64,000 nucleotides of DNA from NCBI RefSeq assembly GCF_000382365.1, contig NZ_KB908228.1:1-64000 (forward strand), read 5' to 3'. This document shows, piece after piece, positions 41,343-59,583 of this stretch. Each line of letters begins with the position of its first letter. Position 1 is the stretch's first letter. Made by a program: the position numbers and the translations under genes. The notes beneath the pieces were generated by a model. That model was not told where the DNA came from. It worked only from the letters and a program-made list of their open reading frames with translations, and did not search any database. Source of the stretch: Pannonibacter phragmitetus DSM 14782. Its GTDB lineage: Bacteria; Pseudomonadota; Alphaproteobacteria; Rhizobiales; Stappiaceae.

Positions 41343-41352
41343 GGGACCCGGC

Positions 41353-42189: not shown

Positions 42190-42914
42190 TCGGCGTTGAA
42201 GGCCTCACGGTTGTCTATGGCACCACGGCGGTGGTGCGGGATGTCAGCTTTTCCGTCGCCACCGGCGAAAGTTTCGCGCTGGTGGGGGAATCGGGCTCCG
42301 GCAAGTCTACCATCCTGAAGGCGCTGGCCGGACAGGTGGACAGCTGGTCCGGCGCGCTGACGCTCGGCAGCCTGCCACTCGGCCACAAGCGCACCAAGGC
42401 GATGATGCGCCACGTGCAGATGGTGTTTCAGGACCCCTACGGCTCACTGCACCCGCGCAAGACCGTCGATGACGCCTTGAGCGAACCGCTGGCAATCCAT
42501 GGGCTTGGAGACCGGGACCAGCGGGTGCTGTCCATGCTGGATGCCGTCGGCCTTGCCCGCAAGTTCCGCTTCCGCCTGCCGCATCAATTATCCGGCGGCC
42601 AGCGCCAGCGCGTCGCCATCGCCCGCGCCCTGATGCTGGAGCCGGAGCTGCTTCTACTTGATGAGCCGACCTCAGCGCTCGACGTATCGGTGCAGGCGGA
42701 AATCCTCAACCTGCTGAAATCCTTGCGCGAGGAGCGCGGCCTCACCTACCTGCTCGTCACGCACGACCTGCCGGTGGTCTCCTTCCTCTGTGACCGGCTG
42801 GGCGTGCTGCGCAATGGTCAGCTTGAGGAAATCGCCCCTGTGTCCGCCCTGAAGGCAGGCGCCCTGACCAGCGCCTACGGCCGCGAACTGGTGCAGCGCA
42901 GCGAGTCTTTCTGA
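42186..42914 (+). CDS. ABC transporter ATP-binding protein, DppF type
   Basis: A 242-residue ATPase with Walker A GESGSGKS, signature LSGGQRQRVAIARAL, Walker B LLLLDEPTSALD and H-loop LLVTHDL. It is shorter than OppF/DppF by about 80 residues because the C-terminal oligopeptide-specific region is mostly missing. It forms the ATPase pair with the preceding gene product. Confidence 0.91.
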   Translation: MIGVEGLTVVYGTTAVVRDVSFSVATGESFALVGESGSGKSTILKALAGQVDSWSGALTLGSLPLGHKRTKAMMRHVQMVFQDPYGSLHPRKTVDDALSEPLAIHGLGDRDQRVLSMLDAVGLARKFRFRLPHQLSGGQRQRVAIARALMLEPELLLLDEPTSALDVSVQAEILNLLKSLREERGLTYLLVTHDLPVVSFLCDRLGVLRNGQLEEIAPVSALKAGALTSAYGRELVQRSESF

Positions 42915-42937
42915 AAAAGGCTTTCGAGGCGCAAAGC

Positions 42938-43954: not shown

Positions 43955-44096
43955 GGTGCGCCCTTTGATCACTTGGCACGATGCTACCGGATAATGGCAT
44001 TCCGGCCAATGGCGAAGAAGCGGATTTCCGGCGATCTTCTGCCCATCGCAGCCCATGACGGCATGAGCGCTGCCGCAGACAGACAAGGATCAGACG

Positions 44097-44507
44097 ATGG
44101 CCAGTTCCGTGACCCAATTTCCCGCCGCCCCTTCCGCCGAGGCTCTGGCCCATTTCGAGGCGCGGCTTGGCTTTGAGACCGACTGCTGGGACGTGCATCA
44201 CGCCCTTTCCACCGGGCAGCAGGACTTCGTGCTTCTGGATGTGCGCAGCCCAGCGCTTTACGCAAGCGGCCATCTGCCGGGCGCGCTCAACCTGCCCCAT
44301 GGCAAGATGACGGAGCGGCGGATGGCGGAGTTTCCGGAAGGCTCGCTCTTCGTCGTCTATTGCGCCGGACCGCATTGCAACGGCGCCAACAAGGCCGCCA
44401 TCCGCCTCGCCCGGCTCGGCCTGCCGGTGAAGGAACTCATCGGCGGCGTCACCGGCTGGCTGGACGAGGGCTTCACTCTTGCCACGCTCACCCAGCCGGC
44501 AGATTGA
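44097..44507 (+). CDS. Rhodanese-like sulfurtransferase
   Basis: A 136-residue single-domain rhodanese with DVRSPALYASGHLPGALNLPHG and the active-site loop YCAGPHCNGANKAA, where the first Cys (position of CAGPHC) is the persulfide carrier. Such proteins move sulfane sulfur to an acceptor, often in thiosulfate, cyanide or persulfide handling. AAGGA precedes the ATG. The 3' end overlaps the convergent histidine-kinase gene by 20 bases. A link to the nearby thiol-redox and TsdA-like genes is possible but unproven. Confidence 0.86.
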   Translation: MASSVTQFPAAPSAEALAHFEARLGFETDCWDVHHALSTGQQDFVLLDVRSPALYASGHLPGALNLPHGKMTERRMAEFPEGSLFVVYCAGPHCNGANKAAIRLARLGLPVKELIGGVTGWLDEGFTLATLTQPAD

Positions 44508-45849
44508 GTTCGGCACAGAACCCCTCTTCCGTCCGGTGAAAGCGAAGCTCCCCGCCCAGCTTGCTGACAGCCATGCCGACGATGGCAAGACCCAGACCGC
44601 TCCCCTCGCCCGCTGGCGAGGGACCCCGCTGGAAGCGCTCGCGGACCAGTTGATGGTCCTCTTCACGGATACCGGGCCCCTGATCAACCACGGTAAGCCT
44701 GAGGCGGCCCAGTTCCGTCTGTGCCGCAATGGCGATCCGGGAGCCTTCGGGGGCGTATTGCATGGCGTTTTCGATGATGTTGCGCAGGGCAAGACGCAAC
44801 AGGTTTTCGCTGCGCACGCCCGCCAATAGCGTCTCATCCGCATCCGTGACGACCTGCAGCGAGCGGCGGTTCTGCAATCCTTCGAGATCCCCCAGCACGC
44901 CCTGGACAAGGGCCGCGATGGCCAATGTCTGCGGGCGTGGCTCACCCTCGGCGGAATCCACCGCCGCCATGTCGATCAGTTGCCGCACCAGACGGCCGGT
45001 GCGGTCCACGCTTGTCGAAATCTGTGCGAGTGCCCGGGAGCGGACCTGCTCGTCCGTGCTCATCAAGGCCACCTGCGCCTGCGTCTTCAGGCCGGCCAGC
45101 GGCGTCTTCAGCTCATGCGCCGCATAGGCGGTGAAAGTCTTCTCCCGCTCGCGCGCTTCACTGACCCGCTGGAACAGCGAGTTGAGCGAGCGCAGCAGCG
45201 GCCGCACCTCGCCCGGTGCACCAGTTTCGTCCAGAGGATGAAGCTCATCTGCCGAGCGTCCCGCCAGATGCGCCGCGATGCGGTTCAGCGGCGCCAGCCC
45301 CTGCGCCACGCTCAGCCAGATCAGCAGCGCCAGCAGCGGCAGAATGGCAAAGGCCGGCACGAGTTGCCCCTTCACCACATCCGCCACCAGCCTGTCGCGG
45401 ATTTCGAGGCTGTCGCCCACCAGCACCCGCACATTCAGGACCGGATTGACCACGGCATAGACCCGCCATCTGGCGCCATCGACCGTGGTTTCACTGAAGC
45501 CATCGCGATGCTCTGCGAGCGACGCACGCGGCGCACTCTCCGAGCGGCTGACCAGTTGCCCCTCCAGAGACCATATCTGGCAGGAAAGCTGCCGCCGGTA
45601 ATCGCCCTGATCCGCTGAAAACTCTGGCGGAACGCCGCTCGCCGTCTGGCTGTTCACCACGGCAGCCACATCGACGTGGTGATTGTTGATCAGTGAACTG
45701 ACCATGCGGGCCGCTTCCATCAGACGCGCATCCAGTGCCTTTTCGACACGATGCTGAACGCTGACATAGGTCCAGGCGACGCCAAGCAGCCAGACTGCGC
45801 CCGTTGTCGCCAGCAGGATGAAGAAGAGCCGCAGGCGGATGGAGCGCAT
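44488..45849 (-). CDS. Sensor histidine kinase (QseC/TctE-like)
   Basis: A 453-residue kinase with a first membrane segment at about 10-30, a periplasmic sensor region, a second segment at about 163-183, HAMP, the H-box with His245 in AAHELKTPLAGL, and the ATPase domain with NIIENAMQYAPEG, DQGPGI and GSGLGLAIV. Its start overlaps the regulator stop by one base. It should phosphorylate the adjacent OmpR-type regulator in response to an envelope signal, which fits the Dsb/L,D-transpeptidase genes beside it. Confidence 0.91.
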   Translation of the reverse strand: MRSIRLRLFFILLATTGAVWLLGVAWTYVSVQHRVEKALDARLMEAARMVSSLINNHHVDVAAVVNSQTASGVPPEFSADQGDYRRQLSCQIWSLEGQLVSRSESAPRASLAEHRDGFSETTVDGARWRVYAVVNPVLNVRVLVGDSLEIRDRLVADVVKGQLVPAFAILPLLALLIWLSVAQGLAPLNRIAAHLAGRSADELHPLDETGAPGEVRPLLRSLNSLFQRVSEAREREKTFTAYAAHELKTPLAGLKTQAQVALMSTDEQVRSRALAQISTSVDRTGRLVRQLIDMAAVDSAEGEPRPQTLAIAALVQGVLGDLEGLQNRRSLQVVTDADETLLAGVRSENLLRLALRNIIENAMQYAPEGSRIAIAAQTELGRLRLTVVDQGPGIREEDHQLVRERFQRGPSPAGEGSGLGLAIVGMAVSKLGGELRFHRTEEGFCAELNLPAG

Positions 45850-46508
45850 CAGCCAGCCCCCAGCCGGTAGCCGACACCGCGCACCGTCTCGATGGCGCTG
45901 GCGCCGAGCTTTGCCCGCAGCTTGTGAATATGCACTTCGATCGTGTTGCTTTCGACATCCTCCTGCCAGCCGTAAAGCCGCTCTTCGAGGGCGGTTTTCG
46001 AGTGGATGGCATTCGGATTTTCCATCAAGGCATGCAGGATCGAAAACTCCCGCCGGGACAGCGGGATGACCTCGCCCTTGCGCTCCAGAACCATGGAGGC
46101 GGGATCAAGGCTCAGGCCCCGGAGGCTCAGCTTGCCGCTTGCCCGACCTTCGGCACGGCGGGTAATGGCCCGCAGCCGCGCGGCCACCTCGTCCAGATCA
46201 AAAGGCTTGCCGAGATAATCGTCAGCGCCCGCATCCAGCCCGTTGACCCGCTCGCCCACCCCGTCCTTGGCCGTCAGCAGCAGAACCGGCAGACGGTTTC
46301 CGGCCTCACGGATGGACAGCAGGATATCCAGGCCCTGCCCATCCGGCAGCATCCGGTCGAGCACCATCGCATCAAAGCCGCCGGTTGCCAGCGCCTGCCG
46401 GGCATCGGAAACCGTAGAGACCCCGTCAACGGCAAAGCCATAAAGCTTCAGCCCCTCCCGCAGGCCGTCCAGCAGGACGAAATCATCTTCCACCACAAGT
46501 ATCCGCAA
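45849..46508 (-). CDS. OmpR-family response regulator
   Basis: A 219-residue regulator with receiver domain (acidic residues D8/D9 region, phosphoacceptor Asp51 in VLDRMLPDGQG, and Lys in the GKPFDLDE motif) and a winged-helix DNA-binding domain ending in VHIHKLRAKLG and VRGVGYRL. It belongs to the QseB/PmrA branch, whose sites are direct repeats like those found at 46555 and 49800. It is divergent from dsbD, with the first box between them. Confidence 0.92.
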   Translation of the reverse strand: MRILVVEDDFVLLDGLREGLKLYGFAVDGVSTVSDARQALATGGFDAMVLDRMLPDGQGLDILLSIREAGNRLPVLLLTAKDGVGERVNGLDAGADDYLGKPFDLDEVAARLRAITRRAEGRASGKLSLRGLSLDPASMVLERKGEVIPLSRREFSILHALMENPNAIHSKTALEERLYGWQEDVESNTIEVHIHKLRAKLGASAIETVRGVGYRLGAG

Positions 46509-46554
46509 TCAAGCCTCCGTGAGCACGACCGTTCCTGTCTGGTGCCGTGGCAAC

Positions 46555-46571
46555 CTTAAGCCTGCCTTAAG
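46555..46571. promoter_or_regulatory. PmrA/QseB-type direct-repeat box, dsbD side
   Basis: CTTAAG-CCTGC-CTTAAG is a perfect hexamer direct repeat with 11-base periodicity, about one helical turn, as in boxes bound by OmpR-family PmrA/QseB regulators. It lies between the divergent response-regulator and dsbD starts (50 bases from dsbD), so it can control both. Confidence 0.75.
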
Positions 46572-46620
46572 CTGGGAACGGGATCCCTCCCCAACCGGAC
46601 AGGAAGCAGAAGGATGGTTC

Positions 46621-48438
46621 ATGCGGTCAGGCACCCTTTTCATCGCTTTGGCGGCGATGCTGACGATACAGGCCCCGGCACAGCTGCAGGCGCAGGATGC
46701 CCCCCTGCCCATGGATCAGGCGTTCCGCCTGACGGTTGAACGCAGCGCCGGTGGCGATGCCGTCCTGCACTGGCAGATGGCAGAAGGTTACTATCTTTAC
46801 CGCGAATATCTGGAGGCGAAAAGCCAGGCTGGCGAGGCACTGGAGGTCCGGAGCGGGCCGGGCAAGATCAAGGATGATCCGGGCTTCGGCACCATGGAAG
46901 TCTATTACGGCACTGCCACCGCCTCCATTGCAAGCCCGCCGCAGAAGATCGAAGTGACCTATCAGGGCTGTCAGGATGGCGGGCTCTGCTATCCGCCCAC
47001 GGCCAAGCGCATTGATCTGGCAAGCCTTGCGGTCACGGATGCAGGCAGGCCTGCCTTGCCCGAAGCAGCCGCTTTTGAAGCGGAGGGGGAGCCGGGGTTC
47101 ACACTGTCCGGAGATCACGCGGAGACGGCTGTTGACCGGCTGATGCAGGATGGCGGGCTGGCGCTGCTGCTGGCCGGCTTCCTAGGCTTCGGCCTGCTGC
47201 TCGCCTTCACGCCCTGCGTTTTCCCGATGTACCCGATCGTTGCCGCCATGCTGGCACGGGAGGGCGGGCAACTGACGGCCCGGCGCGGCCTTGTCATGTC
47301 CACGTCCTACGTTTCCGGCCTCGCCTTTGCCTTCGCCCTGCTTGGCGGGCTGGCGGCATGGTTCGGCCAGAATCTCCAGATGGCGCTTCAGTCGGTCTAT
47401 GTCACGGCGGGCATTGCCGCGCTCTTCGTGCTGCTTGCCCTGCCGGGCTTCGGCCTGTTCAGCCTGCAGCTTCCCCAAGGCCTTGTCAGCCGCCTCACGC
47501 CCTCCGGCAAGGCCGGCGGAACAATTGCCGGGGCCGGAGCGCTCGGCTTTTCCTCGGCGCTGTTCATTGGCCCCTGTGTCACCGCGCCTCTGGCTGGCGC
47601 GCTGCTTTACATCGCCAGAACCGGCGATGCGCTGCTCGGCGCCATGGCGCTTTTTGCGCTGGGGCTCGGCAAGGGCATTCCCCTCATCATCATGTCGGCG
47701 GCGGGCGGCCGCATTCTTCCCAAGGCAGGTGCCTGGATGGAAAGCGTGCGGCAGATCTTCGGCTTCCTGTTTCTGGCAACCGCGCTGTGGCTCGTCATGC
47801 CGCTTCTGCCGGATTGGGGCAACCTGCTGGCCTCAGCCGCGCTCGCCCTCACCTTCGGCCTCTTCACGCTGCAGGCGGCAAACGGCTCCAGCCACAACGG
47901 CATGAAGCTGCTGGGCAGAAGCACCGGTCTGGCCTCGCTCTTCTGGGCCGCCCTTCTCTTCACCGGGCTCGGGCTGGGGGCAAGCGATCCGCTGGAACCG
48001 CTGGCGCCGCTCGCCACAAAGACGGCTTCCACCCAGGCTGCGCAGATCAGCAAGTCCAGCTTCACTGCGGTCACCTCGCGGGAAGACCTCACGGCCCGCA
48101 TCGCGGCAGCGGACGGCAGCAGCCCGGCTCTTGTCTATGTGACCGCTGACTGGTGCGTGACCTGCCGCACCATCGAACGCAGCATCCTCAAGGACCCGCA
48201 GGTTGCCAGCGCCTTGACCGGCATAACCCTGACCACGCTCGACGTGACGGCAGCCGATGCCGGCAAACAGGCGCTGATGCAGGAACTGAAGGTCATCGGC
48301 CCTCCCACCCTGATCTTTCTGGACAGAGCAAGGCGGGAGCCGGATGGAACCCGACTGATTGGCAACTTCCCGGCGCAAGATCTGGCCGATGCCGCGATCA
48401 AGGCCAAGCAAGCGTCTCTTTTCAATCTTGCCAAGTGA
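46621..48438 (+). CDS. dsbD: Thiol:disulfide interchange protein DsbD (ScsB/DsbD type)
   Basis: A 605-residue electron conduit that carries reducing power from cytosolic thioredoxin to periplasmic partners. A signal peptide leads to the N-terminal DsbD domain with the redox pair Cys117/Cys123 (GCQDGGLCYPP). About eight membrane segments with FTPCVFPMYP and FIGPCVTAPLAG carry the membrane cysteine pair. A C-terminal thioredoxin domain has DWCVTC. All six catalytic cysteines are present. AAGGA precedes the ATG. It starts an operon with an L,D-transpeptidase and a DsbA-like gene. Confidence 0.93.
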   Translation: MRSGTLFIALAAMLTIQAPAQLQAQDAPLPMDQAFRLTVERSAGGDAVLHWQMAEGYYLYREYLEAKSQAGEALEVRSGPGKIKDDPGFGTMEVYYGTATASIASPPQKIEVTYQGCQDGGLCYPPTAKRIDLASLAVTDAGRPALPEAAAFEAEGEPGFTLSGDHAETAVDRLMQDGGLALLLAGFLGFGLLLAFTPCVFPMYPIVAAMLAREGGQLTARRGLVMSTSYVSGLAFAFALLGGLAAWFGQNLQMALQSVYVTAGIAALFVLLALPGFGLFSLQLPQGLVSRLTPSGKAGGTIAGAGALGFSSALFIGPCVTAPLAGALLYIARTGDALLGAMALFALGLGKGIPLIIMSAAGGRILPKAGAWMESVRQIFGFLFLATALWLVMPLLPDWGNLLASAALALTFGLFTLQAANGSSHNGMKLLGRSTGLASLFWAALLFTGLGLGASDPLEPLAPLATKTASTQAAQISKSSFTAVTSREDLTARIAAADGSSPALVYVTADWCVTCRTIERSILKDPQVASALTGITLTTLDVTAADAGKQALMQELKVIGPPTLIFLDRARREPDGTRLIGNFPAQDLADAAIKAKQASLFNLAK

Positions 48439-48452
48439 TACAGGAATACCGC

Positions 48453-49154
48453 ATGCCCTCAAGCAAACTGCTGGCAACTGTCCTGTCTGCCCGCCAAACC
48501 CTGATCATCATGGCGCTGGCCCTGGGTCTGGGTGCCTGTGTGCAGACCTCACACACGGCGCCGCCGCATCCGGGCGCCGGACCTGCCGTGCAGGCCATGT
48601 ATGGCCCGGTTATGGACGCTGAGGAGATGATCCCGGCCGTGGACGTGTCGAAGATGGACCCGGAAAATATCCGGCAGATCGTCAACTACCGGACACCCTA
48701 TCCGCCGGGCACCATCGTTGTCGATCCGCATGCCCGGTTCCTCTATCTGGTGATGGAGAACAGCAAGGCGATGCGCTACGGCGTGGGCGTTGCCAAGGCA
48801 GGCCTGGAGTTTGAGGGTGAAGCCGATGTTGCCCGCAAGGCCCGCTGGCCGGGCTGGGTGCCGACGCCCGGCATGATCCAGCGGGAGCCGGAGCGCTATG
48901 GCCATCTGGCGCAGGGCATGCCCGGCGGCATCGAAAATCCCCTCGGCGCCCGCGCGCTCTATCTCTACAAGGACGGCAAGGACACGCTCTACCGGATCCA
49001 CGGCACGAACGAGACCTGGTCCATCGGCCAGTCTGTGTCCTCCGGCTGCATACGCCTGCTCAATCAGGACATCATCGATCTTCATTCGCGCGTCCCGAAG
49101 GGATCGCGGGTGGTGGTGCTTGGCCCCGAACACTCTGGAAAAGGAGAATTCTGA
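48453..49154 (+). CDS. L,D-transpeptidase lipoprotein (YkuD domain), first copy
   Basis: A 233-residue lipoprotein (lipobox LGLGAC, Cys29) with a YkuD domain (about 85-225) whose motif HGTN-x(11)-SSGCIRLLN has His183 and the nucleophile Cys199. L,D-transpeptidases make 3-3 peptidoglycan links or attach proteins to the wall. It begins 14 bases after dsbD, and the next gene overlaps its stop. A cysteine enzyme encoded beside DsbD suggests that DsbD keeps it reduced; this is inference. It is a close paralogue of the copy at 49946. Confidence 0.92.
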   Translation: MPSSKLLATVLSARQTLIIMALALGLGACVQTSHTAPPHPGAGPAVQAMYGPVMDAEEMIPAVDVSKMDPENIRQIVNYRTPYPPGTIVVDPHARFLYLVMENSKAMRYGVGVAKAGLEFEGEADVARKARWPGWVPTPGMIQREPERYGHLAQGMPGGIENPLGARALYLYKDGKDTLYRIHGTNETWSIGQSVSSGCIRLLNQDIIDLHSRVPKGSRVVVLGPEHSGKGEF

Positions 49155-49759
49155 TGCTGCAACGGCGCGAGTTTATCACCGCAGGCCTCACCATGATGGG
49201 TGCTGCCCTTCTCTTCCCCGCGCAAAGCCTTGCCCGGATAACACGGGAAGACGTGTTCTACGACAAGGACGCCCCGGTTCTCGGCAACCCGGACGGCAAG
49301 GTCACCGTGGTTGAGTACTTCGACTACCAGTGCCCCTATTGCAAATCCTCCCACCCGGTTCTGAAGAAGGTGGTGGAGGAAGACGGTGATGTGCGGCTGG
49401 TGCTGAAGGACTGGCCCGTCTTCGGCGGCGCGTCGGTCTTTGCCGCACAGGCCGTGCTGGGGGCAGCCCAGATCGGCAAATACGAGACGGCCATGGAAGC
49501 GCTGATGAAAACAAAGGGAAAGCTGACCGAAGACATGGTGGAAGCGGCCCTGACCGGTGCGGGCCTGACCATGGAAGAGCTTGCCGCCGCCGTGAACGGC
49601 AACACTGCCAGGATCTCCGGCCTGCTGGACCGGAACTACGATCAGGCCCTTGCCTTCAATTTTGCAGGCACACCGTCCTTTGTCATCGGCAGTTCGCTTT
49701 ACCCCGGCGTGCTGGACGAACGCGCGCTGAAGGCGGCCATCGCCAGGGCACGGAGTTAA
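49154..49759 (+). CDS. DsbA-family thioredoxin-like protein (ScsC/Com1 type)
   Basis: A 201-residue exported thiol oxidoreductase with the active site Cys60-Pro-Tyr-Cys63 in EYFDYQCPYC and the cis-Pro loop AGTPSFVIG. The N-terminus MLQRREFITAG with a following hydrophobic stretch may be a Tat or a Sec signal. CPYC proteins encoded next to DsbD-like proteins are usually isomerases/reductases kept reduced by them, as in ScsB-ScsC. Its start overlaps the transpeptidase stop by one base. Confidence 0.9.
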   Translation: MLQRREFITAGLTMMGAALLFPAQSLARITREDVFYDKDAPVLGNPDGKVTVVEYFDYQCPYCKSSHPVLKKVVEEDGDVRLVLKDWPVFGGASVFAAQAVLGAAQIGKYETAMEALMKTKGKLTEDMVEAALTGAGLTMEELAAAVNGNTARISGLLDRNYDQALAFNFAGTPSFVIGSSLYPGVLDERALKAAIARARS

Positions 49760-49799
49760 ATCCTGCGGCGACCGTCAGGGCTGCGGGCAGCTTTCGCGC

Positions 49800-49816
49800 C
49801 TTAAGGCTGCCTTAAG
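49800..49816. promoter_or_regulatory. PmrA/QseB-type direct-repeat box, second transpeptidase
   Basis: CTTAAG-GCTGC-CTTAAG repeats the exact hexamers and spacing of the box at 46555-46571. It lies 130 bases upstream of the second L,D-transpeptidase ATG and 41 bases after the DsbA-like stop, pointing to a separate promoter under the same regulator. Confidence 0.72.
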
Positions 49817-49945
49817 GCAGCCTTGCGATCCGCCTCTGCCGGTGGCCGGACAGCCGCAATGCCAGTTGTCCGGCCACCGCAAACGCAGACCGCAGGGCAG
49901 GTTCCGGGCGCAAGTCCGGCTGCCGCATATCAAGGCCCACCTTTG

Positions 49946-50656
49946 ATGACCTCCATGAATACCCCCGTTTCAACGCGCCTGCGCGCGCGGTATTTCGCGC
50001 AGACCGCCCTCATGGGCCTGCTCGGCCTTGCCCTCACAGCCTGCGTCTCCACCAAACAGCCGGGCGAGCCTTCGCAGGCGGAGCAGGCAGCTCTGGCAAC
50101 CGGTGTGGAGCGCTATCAGGCCCGCACCGATGAGCCCTTCCCGGTGGCAGCCGTCGACACGAAGAAGATCGGTGACAAGTACCTGAAGCAGATTGTTGAC
50201 TACAAGACGGACTATCCGGCCGGGACGATTGTCGTCGATCCGGCCAGCCGGTTCCTTTATCTGGTCAAGGATGGCGGCAAGGCCGTGCGTTATGGCGTTG
50301 GCGTGGGCAAGGCCGGGTTCGAGTTCTCAGGCACCGCCCATGTCGGCTTCAAGCGGCAATGGCCGCGCTGGACGCCGACGCCGGACATGCTGGCGCGCGA
50401 TCCCAGACGCTACGGCAAATGGGCAGACGGCATGGAGGGCGGCGACAAGAACCCGCTCGGCGCCCGCGCCATGTATCTGATGAAGGATGGCAAGGACACG
50501 CTCTACCGCATCCATGGCACCAACGAACCCTGGACAGTCGGCACCGCAGCGTCTTCAGGCTGCATCCGGATGCTCAATCAGGATGTGATCGACCTCTACA
50601 ATCAGGTGTCCCCCGGTGCGCAGGTCGTGGTGCTGGGCGCCGACGGAAGCATCTGA
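49946..50656 (+). CDS. L,D-transpeptidase lipoprotein (YkuD domain), second copy
   Basis: A 236-residue lipoprotein (lipobox LALTAC, Cys33) with a YkuD domain and the catalytic HGTN (His190) and SSGCIRMLN (Cys206). It is collinear with the first copy and shares long stretches, such as PAGTIVVDP, RFLYLV, RYGVGV-KAG and DGKDTLYRIHGTNE, so the two arose by duplication. It has its own CTTAAG box. ATG 49955 is an alternative start. Confidence 0.92.
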   Translation: MTSMNTPVSTRLRARYFAQTALMGLLGLALTACVSTKQPGEPSQAEQAALATGVERYQARTDEPFPVAAVDTKKIGDKYLKQIVDYKTDYPAGTIVVDPASRFLYLVKDGGKAVRYGVGVGKAGFEFSGTAHVGFKRQWPRWTPTPDMLARDPRRYGKWADGMEGGDKNPLGARAMYLMKDGKDTLYRIHGTNEPWTVGTAASSGCIRMLNQDVIDLYNQVSPGAQVVVLGADGSI

Positions 50657-50685
50657 CCACTGCGCCGCACGGGCTTGAGCAGTTT

Positions 50686-50712
50686 CAAGGCGTGATGCGT
50701 CAGCATCGAAAG
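50686..50712 (-). repeat. Short extragenic palindromic repeat, copy C
   Basis: The minus strand is an exact 27-base match to copy A at 33770-33796. It lies 30 bases after the second L,D-transpeptidase stop and has the same hairpin potential. Confidence 0.75.
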
Positions 50713-50809
50713 ACTTGGCATGAGCAGAATGCCGCCGCCCTTCCACCGGCCAGACGCGGCATTCTGACGCCCGGCACCACGGGAAAACGGCAGGTTTCCA
50801 GACGCTTGT

Positions 50810-50821
50810 AGGGAATACCCT
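50810..50821. promoter_or_regulatory. Dyad in the promoter of the pentahaem cytochrome gene
   Basis: AGGGAATACCCT is a short inverted repeat 86 bases upstream of the cytochrome ATG, followed by a second G/C dyad (TCCCGGGA). It could bind the LuxR-type regulator encoded downstream; the assignment is only positional. Confidence 0.3.
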
Positions 50822-50907
50822 GGTCCCTCCCGGGAAAGTCCCAAATCGAAACGCATGGCCTGCGGTCTTACGATCACACACGAAAAATCAGGATAGGTCC
50901 GTGTGTC

Positions 50908-52986
50908 ATGGAAGAAAGCAAAAACAGGAAACTGAAACGGCTGGGGGCAGCTGCGGCCGCAGCCGCCGTTCTGGCTTCCGGTGTAGCCATCTGGATGGCC
51001 ATTCCCCCGGCCATCACCGCAAGGGAGCCTGACTTCGGCGCCAGCGTTGATCCGGCCCTGATCGAACGGGGTAAGTATATCGCGTATCTTGGCGACTGCG
51101 TTGCCTGCCACACCGAAAAGGGCGGCGCACCCATGGCCGGCGGTCTGGCGCTAGAAACCCCGATGGGCACGATCTGGTCCACCAACATCACGCCCGACCC
51201 GAAAACCGGCATCGGCGGCTGGACCTTCGGCGAATTTGACCGCGCCATGCGCAAGGGCGTGGCGGCAAATGGCCATAACCTTTACCCGGCCATGCCCTAT
51301 CCCTCCTATGCCAAGATCACCGAAGAGGACATGACGGCGCTGTGGGCCTATCTCATCAAGGGGCTGGAGCCCGTGGAGAAGCCAAACCAGCCGGCGCAGA
51401 TGAACTTCCCCTTCAACCTGCGCTTCGGCCTTGCCTACTGGAACGCCGTCTTTGCCGATGACACACCCTTCGTGCCGGACCCGGCCCAGGATGAGGAGTG
51501 GAACCGCGGCGCCTATCTGGTGCAAGGTCTTGGCCATTGCGGAGCCTGCCATACCCCGCGCGGCATCGGCTTCAACGAACTCGCCATGACGGAAAAGGGC
51601 CGCAATGGCGATCAGTTCCTTGCCGGGGCACAGGTGGAAAACTGGCACGCCATCGAACTGCGCGACCTGTGGACCGTGGAAGACACCGTCGAGCTTCTGA
51701 AGACCGGCCAGAACCGCTTTGCAACCGTCTCCGGTTCGATGACCGATGTCATCCTGCATTCGACGCAACATTTCACCGATGAAGACCTGACCGCCATCGC
51801 GGTCTATCTGAAGTCGCTGCCCTCAAAGCACCCCCGGCCGCTGCCGCCGGAACCGGTCTACACGGGCGCACCGGACGCGGCCTTCAACACCGCTGGCGGT
51901 CTGGGCTACATGCAGTTCTGCAACGATTGCCACCGGCCGGACGGAACGGGCGTGAGGGGCATTTTCCCGGCGCTCGCCGGAAACCCCACGATTACAGCGA
52001 AAGACCCCTCAAGCCTCATCCACATTACCCTGACAGGCTGGGAAACGGCGGCGACCAACGCATATCCACGCACCTACACCATGCCTGCATTCGCCCGGCT
52101 GACGGACAAGGAAATTGCAGAGATCCTCAGCTATGTGCGTGAGAACTGGGGCGGCGGTGCCCCTGCTGTCACCGAAGCGCAGGTGGCGAAGGCCCGCAAG
52201 AATATCGATCCGAAGATCGATGCATCCACATTCGTGACGCCGCGCCTCGCCAGCCTGCTTGACGAGCCGGACAAGGACCAGCTGGTTCTGGGCATGCGGC
52301 TCAACTCGGAGACGAACAAGCTGCTGCCGGGCCATGTCGGCAATGATCTCAACTGCACCTCGTGCCACCTGAATGCCGGCACGGTTGCCGATGGTTCGCC
52401 CTATGTCGGCGTCTCGGCCTTCTTCCCCAGTTATGCACCCCGTTCCGGCAGGGAAATCACCATGGCCGACCGCATCAACGGCTGTTTCCGCCGCTCGATG
52501 AACGGCCAGCCGCTGAAGCCGGACTCGGAAGAAATGCTGGCCATGCTTGCCTATTTCGACTGGATGAAAGGCGAAACCCGGCCAGAGGACAAGGTTGAAG
52601 GCCGGGGCATCGGCAAGATTGATCCGTCGCTGACGCCTGATCCGGTGAATGGTGAAAAGATCTATGCCGCCCAGTGCGCCGTCTGCCATGGCGCCAATGG
52701 CGAAGGCCTGAAGGATGGCGCAGGGCGTGTGGTCTATCCCGCGCTCTGGGGTGAGCGCTCGTTCAACATCGGCGCAGGCATGGCCCGCACCTACACGGCC
52801 GCCGCCTTCGTCAAGCGCAACATGCCCATCGGCTTCCACGAGAAGTTCCCGCTCGGACAGGGCGGCCTGTCGGATCAGGAAGCGCTCGATGTCGCCGAAT
52901 TCTTCAGCCACAAGCCCCGGCCAGACTTTCCCGGCAAGGAAAAGGACTGGCCAAACGGAGGAAAACCGAAAGACGCCCGTTACTGA
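50908..52986 (+). CDS. Pentahaem c-type cytochrome: alcohol-dehydrogenase-type triheme module fused to TsdA-like module
   Basis: A 692-residue membrane-anchored periplasmic protein. After an N-terminal anchor (about 10-33), residues 50-410 match the cytochrome subunit of alcohol/gluconate dehydrogenases, with haem motifs CVACH (64), CGACH (211) and CNDCH (338). Residues 455-670 match diheme TsdA thiosulfate dehydrogenase/tetrathionate reductase, with CTSCH (483) and CAVCH (590). Cys526 in RINGCFRRSMNG lies exactly 39 residues after His487, the place of the unusual Cys haem ligand of TsdA; Met639 is a candidate distal ligand of the last haem. The fusion suggests TsdA chemistry wired to a quinol- or dehydrogenase-linked haem chain. 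Direction of reaction unknown. Confidence 0.85.
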   Translation: MEESKNRKLKRLGAAAAAAAVLASGVAIWMAIPPAITAREPDFGASVDPALIERGKYIAYLGDCVACHTEKGGAPMAGGLALETPMGTIWSTNITPDPKTGIGGWTFGEFDRAMRKGVAANGHNLYPAMPYPSYAKITEEDMTALWAYLIKGLEPVEKPNQPAQMNFPFNLRFGLAYWNAVFADDTPFVPDPAQDEEWNRGAYLVQGLGHCGACHTPRGIGFNELAMTEKGRNGDQFLAGAQVENWHAIELRDLWTVEDTVELLKTGQNRFATVSGSMTDVILHSTQHFTDEDLTAIAVYLKSLPSKHPRPLPPEPVYTGAPDAAFNTAGGLGYMQFCNDCHRPDGTGVRGIFPALAGNPTITAKDPSSLIHITLTGWETAATNAYPRTYTMPAFARLTDKEIAEILSYVRENWGGGAPAVTEAQVAKARKNIDPKIDASTFVTPRLASLLDEPDKDQLVLGMRLNSETNKLLPGHVGNDLNCTSCHLNAGTVADGSPYVGVSAFFPSYAPRSGREITMADRINGCFRRSMNGQPLKPDSEEMLAMLAYFDWMKGETRPEDKVEGRGIGKIDPSLTPDPVNGEKIYAAQCAVCHGANGEGLKDGAGRVVYPALWGERSFNIGAGMARTYTAAAFVKRNMPIGFHEKFPLGQGGLSDQEALDVAEFFSHKPRPDFPGKEKDWPNGGKPKDARY

Positions 52987-53012
52987 TGCCTTGCCCAGGC
53001 ATTATCAGGAGG

Positions 53013-53033
53013 ACCGGCCGCATCGCGGCCGGT
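53013..53033 (+). terminator. Terminator after the pentahaem cytochrome gene
   Basis: ACCGGCCGC-atc-GCGGCCGGT is a perfect nine-base stem followed by CTTTC, 26 bases after the stop. It separates the cytochrome gene from the sensor kinase gene, although read-through is possible. Confidence 0.8.
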
Positions 53034-53077
53034 CTTTCACATCGCCTTCTCCTGCTGCCTGTGCCAGTTTCACCGCC

Positions 53078-54844
53078 ATGATCCGCCTGCCGTTCCTGCT
53101 TGCCCTTGCCCTGACCGCCGCGCAGCTGCCCGCGCAGGCGGACAGCATCCGCATTGGCGTACTTGCCTTTCAGGGCTCGGAAAGGGCGGCAAAGGATTTC
53201 GAGCCGACGATTGCCCATCTCGCTCAGAGCCTGCCGGAACACAGCTTCACCCTTGTGCCGCTCGATCTTGCCGGCATGGAAAGGGCAGCAAGAGCCGGGG
53301 GCTTGGGCTTCCTCATCACCAACCCGGGAAACTATATCGAGCTTGAGTCGAGCTTCGGCATTACCCGTCTGGCAACCCTCGAAACCCGGAACCATGCCAT
53401 ACCGACCGATACGGTCGGCTCTACCATCATCGTTGCGAACCGGCCCCGGCACCCGGCACAGCTTTCCGGCCTTGCCGGCGCCCGGCTTGCAGTCGTGGAC
53501 AAGGATGCTTTCGGCGGCTGGCATGTCATCCAGCGGGAAATGGAGGCCCACGGCCTGCCAGCACGCCGCCTCACAACCATTCTGGAAACCGGCTTTCCTA
53601 TGAACAATGTCATCACCGCCCTGCGCAAGGGCCGGGCGGATGCGGGCATCATACGCGCCTGTCTTCTGGAAGAGGAAATTGCTGCCGGGCGGGTGGCGCC
53701 GGATGAATTCGCGGTGGTGGGTGAACGTCCGGAGCCCGGCTTTCCCTGCCGCCTGTCCTCGCGCCTCTATCCGGACTGGCCTTTTGCGCGGCTCGCCGGC
53801 ACGCCGCCGGATCTGGCAAAGGCCGTGACCGCAAGCCTGTTGTCCATGGCCCCGGCAGATGGCCGCGCCTGGACCGCGCCGCAGGATTACACCTCCGTGC
53901 ATGCCCTGTTCCGTCAGCTGAAAATCGGGCCTTACGCCAATCTGGAGCACTCCACCTTCCTCAATTTCCTGCGGGCGCACTGGCAGTGGTTTCTGACCGC
54001 CTGTCTCGGGGTGGTCTGGTGGATCATTCACGTGGCACGCGTGGAAACACTGGTGCGGCGGCGCACGGCAGAACTGACGCGGGAAATTCAGGAGCGCGAA
54101 AAGGCGGAACAGACGGCCCGCACCCACCGGGAAGAGCGTGACCAGTTCTCACGGCTTGGCATTCTGGGCGAGATGGCCTCCAACATCGCTCATGAGATCA
54201 ACCAGCCGCTGGCTGCCATCACCAACTATGCCGAAGGCATGACCCGGCTGATTGATGCCGGGCGCACCGACCCGGCGCTGCTGCGCGACGGGGTGCGCGG
54301 CATCGCCGGGCAGGCAGAACGGGCCGGGCTCATCATCCGCCGCATCCGCTCCTTCGTGCGCCGCCGTGAGTTCAGGCGCGAGAATCTCGATGTGAACGAG
54401 GTGCTGCGCGAGACACTGCCCCTTTTTGAGGGCACGGCGCTGCGTCTTGGGGTGCCGCTGCATGTCCATCCAGGCACGGATCTGCCGCAAGTCTATGCCG
54501 ACCGTATCCAGATCGAGCAGGTGCTGTTCAATCTCCTGCAGAATGCGCTGGATGCGATGACAGAAACCGGAGGCCGGGAGCGCGGCATCAAGGTGACGGC
54601 GCGCCATACCGGTGATGCCGTGGAAATCGCGGTGCGTGACCATGGCACCGGCCTGACGGCAGAGGTAGAGGCGCATCTGTTCGATGCGTTCTTCACCACC
54701 AAGGCGAAGGGGCTGGGGCTTGGACTGTCGATCTGCCGCACCATCGTTGAAAATCACAGCGGGCGGCTCTGGGCCGCGAACGAAGCAGGCGGCGGGCTGA
54801 GCATGCACTTTACCCTGCCCGTTTCCCGGGAGACTGACGAATGA
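53078..54844 (+). CDS. ttrS: TtrS-type sensor histidine kinase with PhnD-like periplasmic domain
   Basis: A 588-residue kinase with the TtrS domain order: signal peptide (1-21), PhnD/TtrS-like binding-protein domain (about 23-290), one membrane segment (about 302-322), a coiled linker, H-box with His372 (NIAHEINQPLAAI), N-box Asn489 (LFNLLQNALDAM), then DHGTG and KGLGLGLSICRTI. In Salmonella, TtrS senses tetrathionate through this domain. The sensor domain has two cysteines (Cys195, Cys224) that could react with a sulfur compound, which is inference. The gene overlaps the regulator gene by four bases. Confidence 0.82.
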   Translation: MIRLPFLLALALTAAQLPAQADSIRIGVLAFQGSERAAKDFEPTIAHLAQSLPEHSFTLVPLDLAGMERAARAGGLGFLITNPGNYIELESSFGITRLATLETRNHAIPTDTVGSTIIVANRPRHPAQLSGLAGARLAVVDKDAFGGWHVIQREMEAHGLPARRLTTILETGFPMNNVITALRKGRADAGIIRACLLEEEIAAGRVAPDEFAVVGERPEPGFPCRLSSRLYPDWPFARLAGTPPDLAKAVTASLLSMAPADGRAWTAPQDYTSVHALFRQLKIGPYANLEHSTFLNFLRAHWQWFLTACLGVVWWIIHVARVETLVRRRTAELTREIQEREKAEQTARTHREERDQFSRLGILGEMASNIAHEINQPLAAITNYAEGMTRLIDAGRTDPALLRDGVRGIAGQAERAGLIIRRIRSFVRRREFRRENLDVNEVLRETLPLFEGTALRLGVPLHVHPGTDLPQVYADRIQIEQVLFNLLQNALDAMTETGGRERGIKVTARHTGDAVEIAVRDHGTGLTAEVEAHLFDAFFTTKAKGLGLGLSICRTIVENHSGRLWAANEAGGGLSMHFTLPVSRETDE

Positions 54845-55497
54845 GCGAAACTGGCCTGCCCCTCGTGCTGATCGTCGATGATGACGAAGCCATGCGCCGG
54901 TCCATGGCGTTCCTGTTCGCCTCCGTCGGGCTTGAAACGCAAAGCTTTGCGTCAGCGGACGAACTTCTCCCGGCCCTCGCCCCGGAGAGCTGCATGCGGC
55001 CCGGAGCTCTGGTGCTTGACGTCAGGATGCCCGGCATGAGCGGACTGGAGCTGCAGCGCCGGCTTGCCAGCCAGAGTTTTCCCCTGCCCATCCTGATCGT
55101 GACGGGCCACGGCGATGTGGCCATGGCAGTCGAGGCGCTGAAGGCCGGGGCTTTCGACTTCATCGAAAAGCCCTTCAAGGAACAGAACCTGCTCGATGTG
55201 GTCACGGCAGCCATCCGCCAGTCGCAGGACAACCTCGCCCGCAACGCCCGCCGCCGCACCATTCAGGAGCGGCTGGCAAGGCTCGGGCGGCGGGAGCGCG
55301 AAGTGCTGGACGGTATTCTCGCCGGCAAGTCGAACAAGATCATCGCCTATGAACTCGACCTGTCGATCAAGACCATCGAGGCCTACCGCGCCTCCGTCAT
55401 GACCAAGATGGAAGCCGCCTCCCTGCCTGAACTCGCCTTGATGGTCGGCTCCGTTGATGGGGGCGGCACAGGCCCCCATCTGGGGCAGACCCAGTAG
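54841..55497 (+). CDS. ttrR: TtrR/FixJ-type response regulator
   Basis: A 218-residue regulator with an N-terminal receiver (Asp60 in LVLDVRMPGMSG, Thr/Lys at IVTGHG and EKPF) and a C-terminal LuxR-type helix-turn-helix (RREREVLDGILAGKSNKIIAYELDLSIKTIEAYRASV region split by the recognition turn). The DVRMPGMSG-EKPF pattern is typical of FixJ/TtrR. Coupled by a four-base overlap to ttrS. The adjacent cytochrome gene is its likely target, since no ttrABC genes are present. Confidence 0.85.
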   Translation: MSETGLPLVLIVDDDEAMRRSMAFLFASVGLETQSFASADELLPALAPESCMRPGALVLDVRMPGMSGLELQRRLASQSFPLPILIVTGHGDVAMAVEALKAGAFDFIEKPFKEQNLLDVVTAAIRQSQDNLARNARRRTIQERLARLGRREREVLDGILAGKSNKIIAYELDLSIKTIEAYRASVMTKMEAASLPELALMVGSVDGGGTGPHLGQTQ

Positions 55498-55515
55498 GAT
55501 GCACTCTCACGGATC

Positions 55516-56418
55516 TCAGGCTGCCTGTGCCGTCAGGCGGCCTGAGCGTCTTTCGTCGGCCAGAACGAGGAAAGACCCGGCAAGGATCAGCGCCGCACCG
55601 GGCCACAGGTAACCTTCCGGCGCAAAGCCGAAGGCGAGCCAGCCGGCGAGAATGTTCAGCGGCAGCTTCAGGTGATCGAAGGGTTGCACGAAGGTGGCGT
55701 CTGCGCGAGCATAGGCGAGCGTCAGCAGATAGTTGGCGCTGACGGTGAAGAGCCCGGCGCCCAGCGCCAGACCAATGCCCCAGCCCTGCGGCAGCACCGT
55801 GCCGCCATCGGCCAGCGCCATCAGCCCGTTGGCGGGCGTCAGCAGCATCAGGAGGAAGAGGGTCACCGTTTCAGGCTCTTCCTCACCGGTCAGGCGCTTG
55901 GTGACAAGCGAGGCCCCGCCCCACAGGGCGGCCGCCAGAACCGGCAGAAGGCTTGCCAGCACGAAGTCATCCGACCAGGGCGCCAGCAGGATCATGCCAC
56001 CGGCAAAGCCGGTGAGCGTTGCCAGCCAGCGCAGCGGACTGACGGCTTCGCCCAGAAACAGCCGCGCTCCGGCGATGACGAAGAACGGCGAAGTCATCAC
56101 CAGCGCAATCGCCTGCCAGATCGGCACATGGGCCAGACCGAAGGCCCAGGCCTGCACCCCGCCGACGGCCAGCACCACACGCAGCGCATGCAGGCCGGGG
56201 CGGCGCATGGTGAAACGCCTCAGCCCGCCGCGCAGCACCAGCGGCAGGGCGAAGAGGAAGGCGACAAAATACTGCCAGAAAGCCGCGCTTGAGGCAGGCA
56301 GCCCGTGCAGCATCGTCGCGCCCTGCAGGCAAAGATTGACGATGGCAAAGGACGCCCCTGCCCCCACCATACAGGCGGCGGCCGCAAGCGGCTGACGTGA
56401 ATAGGTATTTGCGGACAT
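55516..56418 (-). CDS. ribN: DMT/EamA-family riboflavin transporter RibN
   Basis: A 300-residue, ten-segment membrane protein made of two EamA repeats. The FMN riboswitch directly upstream identifies it as the RibN type of riboflavin importer known from rhizobia, since EamA sequences alone do not define the substrate. The ATG at 56418 has GGAG nine bases before it. It converges on ttrR with 18 bases between the stops. Confidence 0.85.
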   Translation of the reverse strand: MSANTYSRQPLAAAACMVGAGASFAIVNLCLQGATMLHGLPASSAAFWQYFVAFLFALPLVLRGGLRRFTMRRPGLHALRVVLAVGGVQAWAFGLAHVPIWQAIALVMTSPFFVIAGARLFLGEAVSPLRWLATLTGFAGGMILLAPWSDDFVLASLLPVLAAALWGGASLVTKRLTGEEEPETVTLFLLMLLTPANGLMALADGGTVLPQGWGIGLALGAGLFTVSANYLLTLAYARADATFVQPFDHLKLPLNILAGWLAFGFAPEGYLWPGAALILAGSFLVLADERRSGRLTAQAA

Positions 56419-56443
56419 GCACGGCGCTCCAACGCTGTCGTCA

Positions 56444-56457
56444 TGTCCCCGGGGACA
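56444..56457. promoter_or_regulatory. Perfect 14-base palindrome in the riboswitch leader
   Basis: TGTCCCCGGGGACA lies between the riboswitch aptamer and the ribN ATG, 26 bases upstream of the start. It may be part of the expression platform or an unrelated site. Confidence 0.4.
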
Positions 56458-56514
56458 ATCATGCGCATGGCAAGCAGCACCCGTTTGCGGCGGGCGGACC
56501 AGCTGGCGCACAAG

Positions 56515-56663
56515 CTCTCTTTCATCCGGACTATACCGTCGGCTCCGGCATCGCACCGGATCTGCTGACCCTCTCCGGCAAACCGGAGAGGCGCTCGCGG
56601 GCTCCAGACAGAAACGAGCCTGCCTGATACCGCCGGTGGGGAATTGCACCCCGCCCCGAGAAC
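56515..56663 (-). promoter_or_regulatory. FMN riboswitch (RFN element)
   Basis: The minus strand contains the conserved RFN blocks in order: GGGTGCAATTCCCCACCGGC, GGTATCAG, GAGCCCGCGAGCG, the variable stem CCTCTCCGG-TTTG-CCGGAGAGG, GGTGCGATGCCGGAGCCGAC, and GGTATAGTCCGGATGAAAGA. Binding of FMN should reduce expression of the ribN gene, whose ATG is 97 bases downstream. Whether control acts on transcription or on translation initiation is not decided by the visible sequence. Confidence 0.97.
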
Positions 56664-56727
56664 TTCTGTGACAAGGCATAGACCCGCCTGCCCTGCCGAT
56701 GCAAGGGGGCAGATCAGGATTTTTCAG

Positions 56728-57393
56728 TCAGACTGAAAGCCAGCTGCCGATACCGGCAGGTTCGGCGGCAATCAGGGCAGGCTTCTCCGCCTCCAGCTCC
56801 TCGCGCGAGCCGTAGCCCCAGAGCACGCCGATGCTGCGCAAGCCGTTGGCATTGGCGCCGATCAGGTCGTGCTTGCGGTCACCGATCATGACGCACTGCT
56901 CCGGCGAACGCCCTTCCTTCGCAAGAAGATAGGCGATCAGCTCCGCTTTGGTCGAGCGCGTGCCATCCAGCTCCGAGCCATAGACGCGGATGAAATCCGG
57001 CATCAGGCCGAAATGCTCGACGATCTTGCCCGCATAGGCGTGAGGTTTGGAGGTAGCGACATAAAGTGAGAAACCAGCTTCAGACAGCTTGCGGGTCAGC
57101 GGCGCAATGCCGGTGATCAGCTCGTTCTCGAAAAGGCCGGTGGCCGTGTAGCGCTCGCGGTAAAGCGCCACAGCCCGGTCCAGCAGTGCCCTGTCGCTGC
57201 TGTTGAGCAGAACAGCAAAGCTGTCCCACAGCGGAGGGCCGATGCACCAGCCCAGCTCTTCGGCTGGCGGCACAACGGCACCCAGGGCTGCAAGGGCATG
57301 CTGGATGGACCGCGTGATCCCGGCAAAAGGATCGGTCAGGGTTCCGTCCAGATCGAACAGGACCGTATCGATCCCGCCAGAGGACTGCGTCAT
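56728..57393 (-). CDS. HAD-superfamily phosphatase (Gph-like)
   Basis: A 221-residue HAD hydrolase with motif I DLDGTLTDP, the small cap domain, motif II ATSKP, the Lys of STKAEL and motif IV GDRKHDLIGANANG. It resembles phosphoglycolate phosphatases and other small-molecule phosphatases; the substrate is not predictable. Its start overlaps the end of the pccA gene by four bases, so it is translationally coupled to a biotin carboxylase gene. Confidence 0.86.
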   Translation of the reverse strand: MTQSSGGIDTVLFDLDGTLTDPFAGITRSIQHALAALGAVVPPAEELGWCIGPPLWDSFAVLLNSSDRALLDRAVALYRERYTATGLFENELITGIAPLTRKLSEAGFSLYVATSKPHAYAGKIVEHFGLMPDFIRVYGSELDGTRSTKAELIAYLLAKEGRSPEQCVMIGDRKHDLIGANANGLRSIGVLWGYGSREELEAEKPALIAAEPAGIGSWLSV

Positions 57394-59402
57394 TCAAACT
57401 CCATGATCACGGCATCCACCGCCAGGCTGTCGCCGGGCTTGGCCTTGATCGAGGAGATAACACAGTCACGTTCGGCGCGAAGCACGTTTTCCATCTTCAT
57501 GGCTTCGACGATGGCCAGTTGCTCACCCGCCTTCACCTCCTGCCCTTCGGTGACGGCGATGGAGACGACGAGGCCCGGCATCGGGCACAGCAGCAGGCGG
57601 GAGGTGTCCGGCGGCAGCTTCTCCGGCATCAGCGCATCCAGCTCCGCCGTGCGCGGGGTCATGACGCGGGCGATGACGGAGAAGCCCTGCCAGTCGAGCC
57701 GGTAGCCGCTGCGCACCGGGCGCACCTGCACCGTGACGCGCTTGCCGCCCACCGTGCCATTCCACAACATATCCCCCGGCACCCAGCTGGAGGTGACCGT
57801 GACCGGCGCGCCCTCGCCCACGGCAATGTCCATCTCGATGGGCGTGCCGGGATAGCCTTCAGTCAGGCGCACGGGGATATAGGCCTTGCCGATCTTCACG
57901 GTCCAGGCTTCGCGCACCGCACCCGAATGCGGGCGCAGGCGGCCCGGCAGATGGTCCAGCCGCTCGCGCCGCAGGGTTTCCATGGTCAGCGCCACGGCGG
58001 CCAGCGTCTCCAGCGCGGCCGCATCCGGCTCCGCCGGGGCAAAGCCGTCCGGATATTCCTCGGCGATGAAGCCGGTGGAGAGGGTTCCTGCGCGCCAGCG
58101 CGGATGGTTCATCAGCGAGGTCAGGAAAGGCACGTTGTGCTGGATGCCATCGACATAGAAGGCGTCGAGCGCTTCGGACATGGCCTCGATCGCACCCGCC
58201 CTGTCCGGCGCATGGGTGATCAGCTTGGCGATCATCGGGTCGTAGAACATGGAAATTTCCGAGCCCTCGACCACGCCCGTGTCATTGCGCACGGTCACGC
58301 CATCGCTCACTTTCTCCTCCGGCGGGCTGTAGCGCACCAGCCGGCCGATGGAAGGGAGGAAATTGCGGTACGGGTCTTCCGCATAGATGCGGCTTTCCAC
58401 GGCCCAGCCGTTCAGCTTCACATCGGACTGGCCGATGGAGAGCTTTTCACCGGCGGCAACGCGGATCATCTGCTCGACCAGATCAATGCCGGTGATCAGT
58501 TCCGTCACCGGATGCTCCACCTGCAGGCGGGTGTTCATTTCGAGGAAGAAGAAGCTCTTGTCCTGCCCGGCGACAAATTCCACTGTGCCGGCGCTGTCGT
58601 AATTCACGGCCTTGGCAAGGGCCACGGCCTGCTCGCCCATGGCGCGGCGCGTCGCCTCGTCCAGCAGCGGCGACGGGGCCTCCTCAATGACCTTCTGATT
58701 TCGGCGCTGGATCGAACATTCACGCTCACCCAGATAGATCACGTTGCCATGCTTGTCGCCCAGCACCTGAATTTCAATATGGCGCGGGTTCTGGATGAAC
58801 TTCTCGATAAAGACGCGGTCATCACCAAAGGAGGACGCAGCCTCCGACTTGGAACGGGCATAGCCCTCATGCACTTCGCCCGCGTTCCACGCAATGCGCA
58901 TGCCCTTGCCGCCGCCGCCGGCAGAGGCCTTGATCATCACCGGGTAGCCGATTTCCTCGGCAATCTTCACGGCCTCTTCGGGTGACTGGATCACTCCCAG
59001 ATAGCCCGGCACGGTGCTGACCTTGGCGGCATTGGCGAATTTCTTGGATTCGATCTTGTCACCCATGGCCTCGATAGCCTTGGGGTTGGGGCCGATGAAG
59101 ACGATGCCTTCCGCCGCCAGTGCTGCCGGGAAAGCGGCACGCTCGGACAGGAAGCCATAGCCCGGATGCACGGCCTCTGCGCCGGTCTGCTTGCAGGCGG
59201 CGATGATCTTGTCCATCACCAGATAGGACTCGGAAGCCGCAGCCGGGCCGATATGCACCGCCTCGTCGGCCATCTCAACATGCAGGGCGTCCCGGTCCGC
59301 GTCGGAATAGACGGCTACGGTCCTGATGCCCATGCGCTTCGCGGTCTTGATGACCCGGCAGGCGATTTCGCCCCGGTTTGCGATCAGGATCTTTGAAAAC
59401 AT
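57390..59402 (-). CDS. pccA: Propionyl-CoA carboxylase biotin-carboxylase/biotin-carrier subunit (alpha)
   Basis: A 670-residue acyl-CoA carboxylase alpha subunit: biotin carboxylase domain (MFSKILIANRGEIACRVI, GGGGKGMRIA ATP-grasp loop, EMNTRLQVEHPVTE), a middle BT-like region, and C-terminal biotin carrier domain with Lys636 in VEAMKMENVL. The ESRIYAEDPYRNFLPSIGRL sequence and the BT region favour propionyl-CoA over methylcrotonyl-CoA carboxylase. The enzyme turns propionyl-CoA into methylmalonyl-CoA with a beta subunit (PccB) that is not in the window. The cobalamin genes nearby fit a methylmalonyl-CoA mutase pathway, but that is inference. Confidence 0.9.
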   Translation of the reverse strand: MFSKILIANRGEIACRVIKTAKRMGIRTVAVYSDADRDALHVEMADEAVHIGPAAASESYLVMDKIIAACKQTGAEAVHPGYGFLSERAAFPAALAAEGIVFIGPNPKAIEAMGDKIESKKFANAAKVSTVPGYLGVIQSPEEAVKIAEEIGYPVMIKASAGGGGKGMRIAWNAGEVHEGYARSKSEAASSFGDDRVFIEKFIQNPRHIEIQVLGDKHGNVIYLGERECSIQRRNQKVIEEAPSPLLDEATRRAMGEQAVALAKAVNYDSAGTVEFVAGQDKSFFFLEMNTRLQVEHPVTELITGIDLVEQMIRVAAGEKLSIGQSDVKLNGWAVESRIYAEDPYRNFLPSIGRLVRYSPPEEKVSDGVTVRNDTGVVEGSEISMFYDPMIAKLITHAPDRAGAIEAMSEALDAFYVDGIQHNVPFLTSLMNHPRWRAGTLSTGFIAEEYPDGFAPAEPDAAALETLAAVALTMETLRRERLDHLPGRLRPHSGAVREAWTVKIGKAYIPVRLTEGYPGTPIEMDIAVGEGAPVTVTSSWVPGDMLWNGTVGGKRVTVQVRPVRSGYRLDWQGFSVIARVMTPRTAELDALMPEKLPPDTSRLLLCPMPGLVVSIAVTEGQEVKAGEQLAIVEAMKMENVLRAERDCVISSIKAKPGDSLAVDAVIMEFE

Positions 59403-59583
59403 GCCTCGCCTGCTCCCGCGTCCAACTGGCCCGTTCCGTCGCGTGATGAACGGTTTGCCAGCGATATTTGTCAGCCTTCCTTGGGTTTTAGGCGGGCTGT
59501 ACCTGCGGCGCAATATCACCAAAGGATGAGCCGGTGCAGCATTGCCAGCCGTTCGCCAGGGCAGCCCCGGCCCGCCAGCTGTC

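Follow-up and report, generated by a model that had tools for sequence, protein, structure and literature searches.

Which enzyme does a tetrathionate-type sensor serve when the molybdoenzyme TtrA is missing from the genome? The question is raised by the window, the whole 64,000-nucleotide stretch of Pannonibacter phragmitetus DSM 14782 analysed here, in which a preliminary description had placed a TtrSR-type pair beside a TsdA-like pentahaem cytochrome gene without ttrABC. This arrangement was confirmed, and the genes and domains are as follows.

50908–52986, + strand: pentahaem fusion cytochrome gene, 692 aa, with an N-terminal hydrophobic helix (predicted anchor), a trihaem ADH-type domain and a C-terminal TsdA domain
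51040–52203, + strand: trihaem domain, aa 45–432, resembling the quinone-linked ADH/GDH/FDH cytochrome subunit (PDB 8gy2_B, E 6.5e-99; 8hdd_B; 7w2j_C)
52234–52935, + strand: TsdA domain, aa 443–676 (PDB 4v2k/4wq7/5lo9, PF21342, alignment)
53078–54844, + strand: TtrS-type sensor kinase gene (PhnD-like periplasmic domain, TM, HisKA, HATPase)
54841–55497, + strand: TtrR/FixJ-type response regulator gene (receiver and GerE, a LuxR HTH), sharing 4 bp with the 3′ end of the kinase gene

No recognisable ttrA was found in the Pannonibacter assembly (99.99% complete), the sole genome searched for it, where the best TtrA match reached 20 bits over 45 residues. With TtrA missing from the genome, the pair has no adjacent ttrBCA operon of the kind that TtrSR controls.

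The fusion protein contains five CXXCH motifs (C64, C211, C338, C483 and C590). Residues 443–676 matched Allochromatium TsdA (4wqc/4v2k) with an E-value of about 1e-53, and alignment with AvTsdA assigned C483-H487 with the ligand Cys526 to haem 1 of the TsdA domain and C590-H594 with the ligand Met639 to haem 2. All five motifs, Cys526 and Met639 were invariant in an alignment of 16 relatives. Judged by these residues, the protein probably interconverts thiosulfate and tetrathionate. A search for SoxA identity matched nothing beyond this TsdA domain. As in Marichromatium purpuratum TsdBA (PDB 5lo9), TsdA is fused C-terminally to another cytochrome; however, the partner there is the dihaem TsdB, whereas here it is a trihaem ADH-type subunit, giving five haems in total. 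This domain aligned over about 390 residues with the cytochrome subunits of quinone-linked alcohol, glucose and fructose dehydrogenases (8gy2, 8hdd, 7w2j). Unlike those subunits, the fusion has no dehydrogenase subunit alongside and its C-terminus runs on into TsdA; no PQQ- or FAD-dependent dehydrogenase subunit was found among the open reading frames beside it or in the immediate flanks of annotated relatives. The AlphaFold model of the fusion was of low confidence (pLDDT 63.7) and was taken only for the N-terminal helix.

Cross-genome co-occurrence of ttrSR and the fusion gene, which the preliminary description had proposed to check, proved strong. The order fusion-kinase-regulator, referred to here as the cassette, recurred at no fewer than 14 other alpha- and betaproteobacterial loci, the annotated ones differing in their flanks. 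Hosts of the cassette include Rhizobium, Allorhizobium, Siculibacillus and relatives, Thioclava, other Rhodobacteraceae, Ideonella, Pelomonas and Rubrivivax. Because the same order recurs in unrelated neighbourhoods, the grouping exceeds chance. Within its own family, the fusion was found in 1 of 87 species, namely the Pannonibacter genome, and one other species has a distant TsdA. A second set (Azospira, Zoogloea, Gallionella and kin) carries TtrSR of 41–46% identity upstream of the fusion gene, and a gammaproteobacterial locus (L139) holds TtrSR, ttrBCA and the fusion together, recalling the Vibrio parahaemolyticus cluster. Fusion genes without TtrSR are common in Pseudomonas, Xanthobacter and Rhodopseudomonas, indicating that the fusion does not need a TtrSR-type regulator. 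This trihaem-TsdA fusion, undescribed in the papers searched, occurs widely in Pseudomonas, P. aeruginosa PA7 among them, and also on plasmid pMOL30 of Cupriavidus metallidurans, in both cases with no TtrSR (L137, L077, L110–L168).

The sensor pair was then assigned by domain content, family models and phylogeny. The program-made open reading frame of the kinase starts at 52715, and the kinase start was taken as 53078. The pair has the TtrSR architecture, in which a kinase with PhnD-like periplasmic (PF12974, E 4e-26), HisKA and HATPase domains adjoins a receiver-LuxR regulator. The best NCBIfam model for the kinase was TtrS (NF040750, E 9e-95), with 318 bits against a cut-off of 750, and the regulator scored 240 bits with the FixJ model and 147 bits with the TtrR model (NF040749, cut-off 290). 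Hafnia TtrS and TtrR exceeded the cut-offs as controls (961 and 335 bits). However, ttrBCA-linked Azospirillum pairs also missed them with much the same scores (342–347 bits for TtrS and 172 for TtrR), so the shortfall says little. Salmonella-type TtrSR-ttrBCA systems share the kinase architecture, the conserved periplasmic cysteine pair and the regulator type with the window pair, whereas their target is the molybdoenzyme TtrABC, the window sensor is 29–32% identical to theirs, and the window pair lies below the NCBIfam cut-offs. The cysteines, Cys195 and Cys224, are conserved throughout the TtrS-type kinases, that of Hafnia included, and are absent from Sulfitobacter hybrid kinases. By structure prediction, the sensor fold resembles the oxyanion binders PtxB, ArrX and AioX, with PtxB (5o37) as the best match.

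Maximum-likelihood phylogeny placed the cassette kinases in one clade (support 100/100), lying within a group of 29 rows (93/99) whose remaining members were all fusion-linked or ttrBCA-linked kinases or close relatives of these. The kinase thus did not take the position that the preliminary description had named as refuting, in a tree whose reference set contained no characterised phosphonate- or alcohol-sensing kinase. Long branches make the placement of enterobacterial TtrS unsure. The nearest kinases beyond the fusion-linked sets adjoin ttrBCA, not phs genes. On these sequence data the pair is TtrSR-type, not a TtrSR equivalog, a label chosen because the NCBIfam cut-offs are missed, yet the kinase groups with ttrBCA-linked kinases. 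No second PhnD-domain kinase was found in the genome, where other matches covered the kinase domain only, bar one weak match, at 26.6 bits, that covers a portion of the sensor. On a Citrobacter plasmid (L193), a PhnD-domain kinase pair lies beside a flavoprotein and c-type cytochromes in place of ttrBCA, a possible further sensor-effector swap.

The region 50657–50907, put forward earlier as the site of control, was found to hold a conserved tandem operator, predicted from the following elements.

50811–50820, + strand: first dyad of the proposed TtrR operator, GGGAATACCC, present upstream of the fusion gene in all cassettes
50832–50842, + strand: second dyad, GGGAAAGTCCC, 21–22 bp past the first, a spacing conserved in cassettes
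50867–50874, + strand: putative -10 region, CTTACGAT, at a fixed distance from the operator; CTAG-CT in relatives
53012–53034, + strand: terminator-like hairpin between the fusion and kinase genes, followed by TTT (whole-gap MFE -41.5 kcal/mol, z -4.1)

The cassette consensus of the first dyad is GGGNAAACCC, and columns 57–63 of 18 aligned fusion promoters are conserved as a CTA-CT-like putative -10. The first dyad occurred in 16/16 cassette promoters, which represent 15 distinct loci (L084 and L094 being the same genome), versus 2/70 promoters of fusion genes that have no TtrSR next to them. In the genomes of both exceptions TtrSR is encoded at another site, as an unlinked 66% pair (L200) or a 44% pair beside ttrBCA (L201). 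Among 29 other genomes without the motif, 20 lacked such a sensor, and the remaining nine, beta- and gammaproteobacterial, had a more distant one; several of the inspected members of this group carried another dyad. The association of operator and TtrSR gave a Fisher value of 1.6e-15, which overstates independence as the rows share ancestry. For this reason, stronger evidence comes from the unlinked retentions and from co-losses: neither operator nor TtrS is present in seven relatives inside the cassette-holding fusion clade, which belong to two lineages (Rhodopseudomonas and Roseovarius/Pelagivirga). A similar tandem element precedes ttrB in three TtrSR-ttrBCA loci (L082, L081, L201), with a like layout in Azospirillum ttrB promoters. 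In the 4.78 Mb Pannonibacter genome, the only exact tandem match was 50811–50842; a reversed control pattern gave 3 matches at up to one mismatch, so that inexact matches carry no meaning. Predicted control of the fusion gene by the TtrR-type regulator is well supported because the operator tracks the cassettes, the exceptions keep TtrSR elsewhere, and related ttrBCA promoters carry a similar element. GC-rich hairpins in the gap between fusion and kinase genes were also seen in other cassettes looked at, and the intergenic hairpin points to a higher output of the enzyme than of its regulators. In Rhodocyclales and Gallionella (L122, L146, L155, L158–L160, L136), where a divergent TtrSR lies upstream, the dyad before the fusion gene differs and is GGTTA...TAACC-like.

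The origin of the cassette was indicated by comparison with a congener (G008).

44474–55514, no strand assigned: insertion of ~11 kb carrying the cassette, absent from G008

The empty site in G008 (L220) matches window positions 36986–44473 and then 55515–59550. The segment between is read as an insertion because the rhodanese gene in G008 is joined directly to the EamA gene. The insertion took the place of the final codons of the rhodanese gene and shows no difference in G+C content. The rhodanese (44097–44507), about 6.4 kb away and earlier considered part of a sulfur theme, was rejected as a partner, being present at the empty site of G008 and not found beside other TtrSR cassettes.

The locus is best read, with a probability of roughly 0.62, as a horizontally acquired, self-contained sulfur-response unit running from sensor to regulator to tandem dyads to TsdA fusion. 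Its gene content, haem ligands, co-inheritance, operator, kinase phylogeny and insertion are drawn from sequence, and its operation would be as follows. The PhnD-like periplasmic domain of the kinase would bind a sulfur oxyanion, most likely tetrathionate, and the kinase would phosphorylate the TtrR-type regulator. The regulator would bind the two tandem dyads just upstream of the promoter and turn the fusion gene on, with ttrSR probably also transcribed by read-through of a leaky terminator. The fusion, anchored in the membrane, would use its Cys-ligated TsdA haem to interconvert tetrathionate and two thiosulfates, with the trihaem domain exchanging electrons with the respiratory chain.

The different sensor-effector pairing suggested at the outset stands only in part. 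That TtrRS can control a TsdA enzyme is already known, as V. parahaemolyticus TtrRS directly activates tsdBA, alongside ttrBCA, via GTGG-N4-CCAC (PMC11293645). Both systems place a PhnD-domain kinase and a TtrR regulator over a TsdA-type enzyme (by prediction in the cassette), and both have a dyad operator immediately upstream of -35, in which an N4 spacer separates four-base half-sites. In contrast to the cassette, V. parahaemolyticus has ttrBCA, and its TsdB and TsdA are separate gene products. The known ttrR box GTGG-N4-CCAC was not found in the fusion promoter, which instead has tandem GGG-N4-CCC dyads of like geometry, as in other cassettes. New are a dedicated unit that lacks ttrBCA, its targeting of a trihaem-TsdA fusion, the predicted operator, and its spread. 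No paper joining TtrSR with this fusion was found in the literature searched, most subscription journals lying outside its scope. The locus links a tetrathionate-type sensor to a cytochrome enzyme in a genome without TtrA, offers a predicted TtrR-type operator that is directly testable, and belongs to a set of alphaproteobacterial sensors that differ from those of gammaproteobacteria in use as gut-inflammation biosensors.

The direction of catalysis leans slightly towards tetrathionate reduction drawing on quinol. Quinol has a potential from which electron transfer to tetrathionate runs downhill. The haem-2 motif of the fusion is K-x-N-M, with K-x-N preceding Met639, matching Lys252, Asn254 and Met255 of the tetrathionate-reducing C. 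jejuni TsdA (PMC5146829), whereas A. vinosum TsdA has Lys208-Met209 and the oxidation-biased M. purpuratum TsdBA has A-A-N-M; as a direction marker this motif is weak. The potential of tetrathionate is given as +198 mV in one source (PMC9562282). The motif, the nearest kinases and these energetics are all consistent with tetrathionate reduction induced by its substrate. The further step, that the unit performs molybdenum-free tetrathionate respiration, with a TtrSR-type sensor inducing a quinol-linked pentahaem TsdA fusion in the role of TtrABC from a three-gene cassette spread in alpha- and betaproteobacteria, is offered tentatively.

Nearly as likely as tetrathionate reduction, though itself doubtful, is a product-activated loop in which TsdA turns thiosulfate into tetrathionate and TtrS senses the product and raises the enzyme. 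Such a loop was shown for TtrRS-TsdBA in V. parahaemolyticus (PMC11293645); there, however, TtrBCA removes tetrathionate, and without ttrA the product would accumulate here. Somewhat less probable still, the kinase may sense thiosulfate and the fusion act as a thiosulfate dehydrogenase feeding electrons into the respiration of an aerobe. Cassette hosts do include aerobic heterotrophs, and electrons of ADH-type cytochromes normally go from enzyme to quinone, the route this explanation calls for. The PhnD-HisKA kinase ThsS of Shewanella halifaxensis senses thiosulfate and, with its FixJ-like operator TATGTGGTTTACCACAAT of the same N4 dyad geometry, controls the thiosulfate reductase promoter PphsA (PMC5408782). 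The nearest kinases other than fusion-linked ones, however, adjoin ttrBCA, and the haem-2 motif is of the C. jejuni type. That the regulator pair serves other targets and merely neighbours the fusion is very improbable: in one genome (L200) TtrSR is not linked to the fusion gene, but the operator persists there, was lost together with TtrS in two lineages, and has its sole exact genomic copy at the fusion gene.

Besides the preferred unit of sensor, regulator and fusion, the insertion carries a QseBC-like pair, DsbD, a DsbA/ScsC-like protein and two L,D-transpeptidases (44488–50656). This module was not found beside other TtrSR cassettes; it also adjoins the fusion gene in Xanthobacter, Paracoccus and, partly, G140, in differing orientations (L104, L111, L115, L124, L131, L143, L079, L087), which hints at a functional tie to the fusion, perhaps in repairing periplasmic cysteines attacked by tetrathionate or copper. 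PADLOC and PHROGs searches returned nothing relevant. Positions 50673–50724 are a short dispersed REP-like repeat with dozens of copies across the Pannonibacter genome and congeners. In G140 (L087), a second TsdA gene lies a few kb downstream of the fusion gene (L072).
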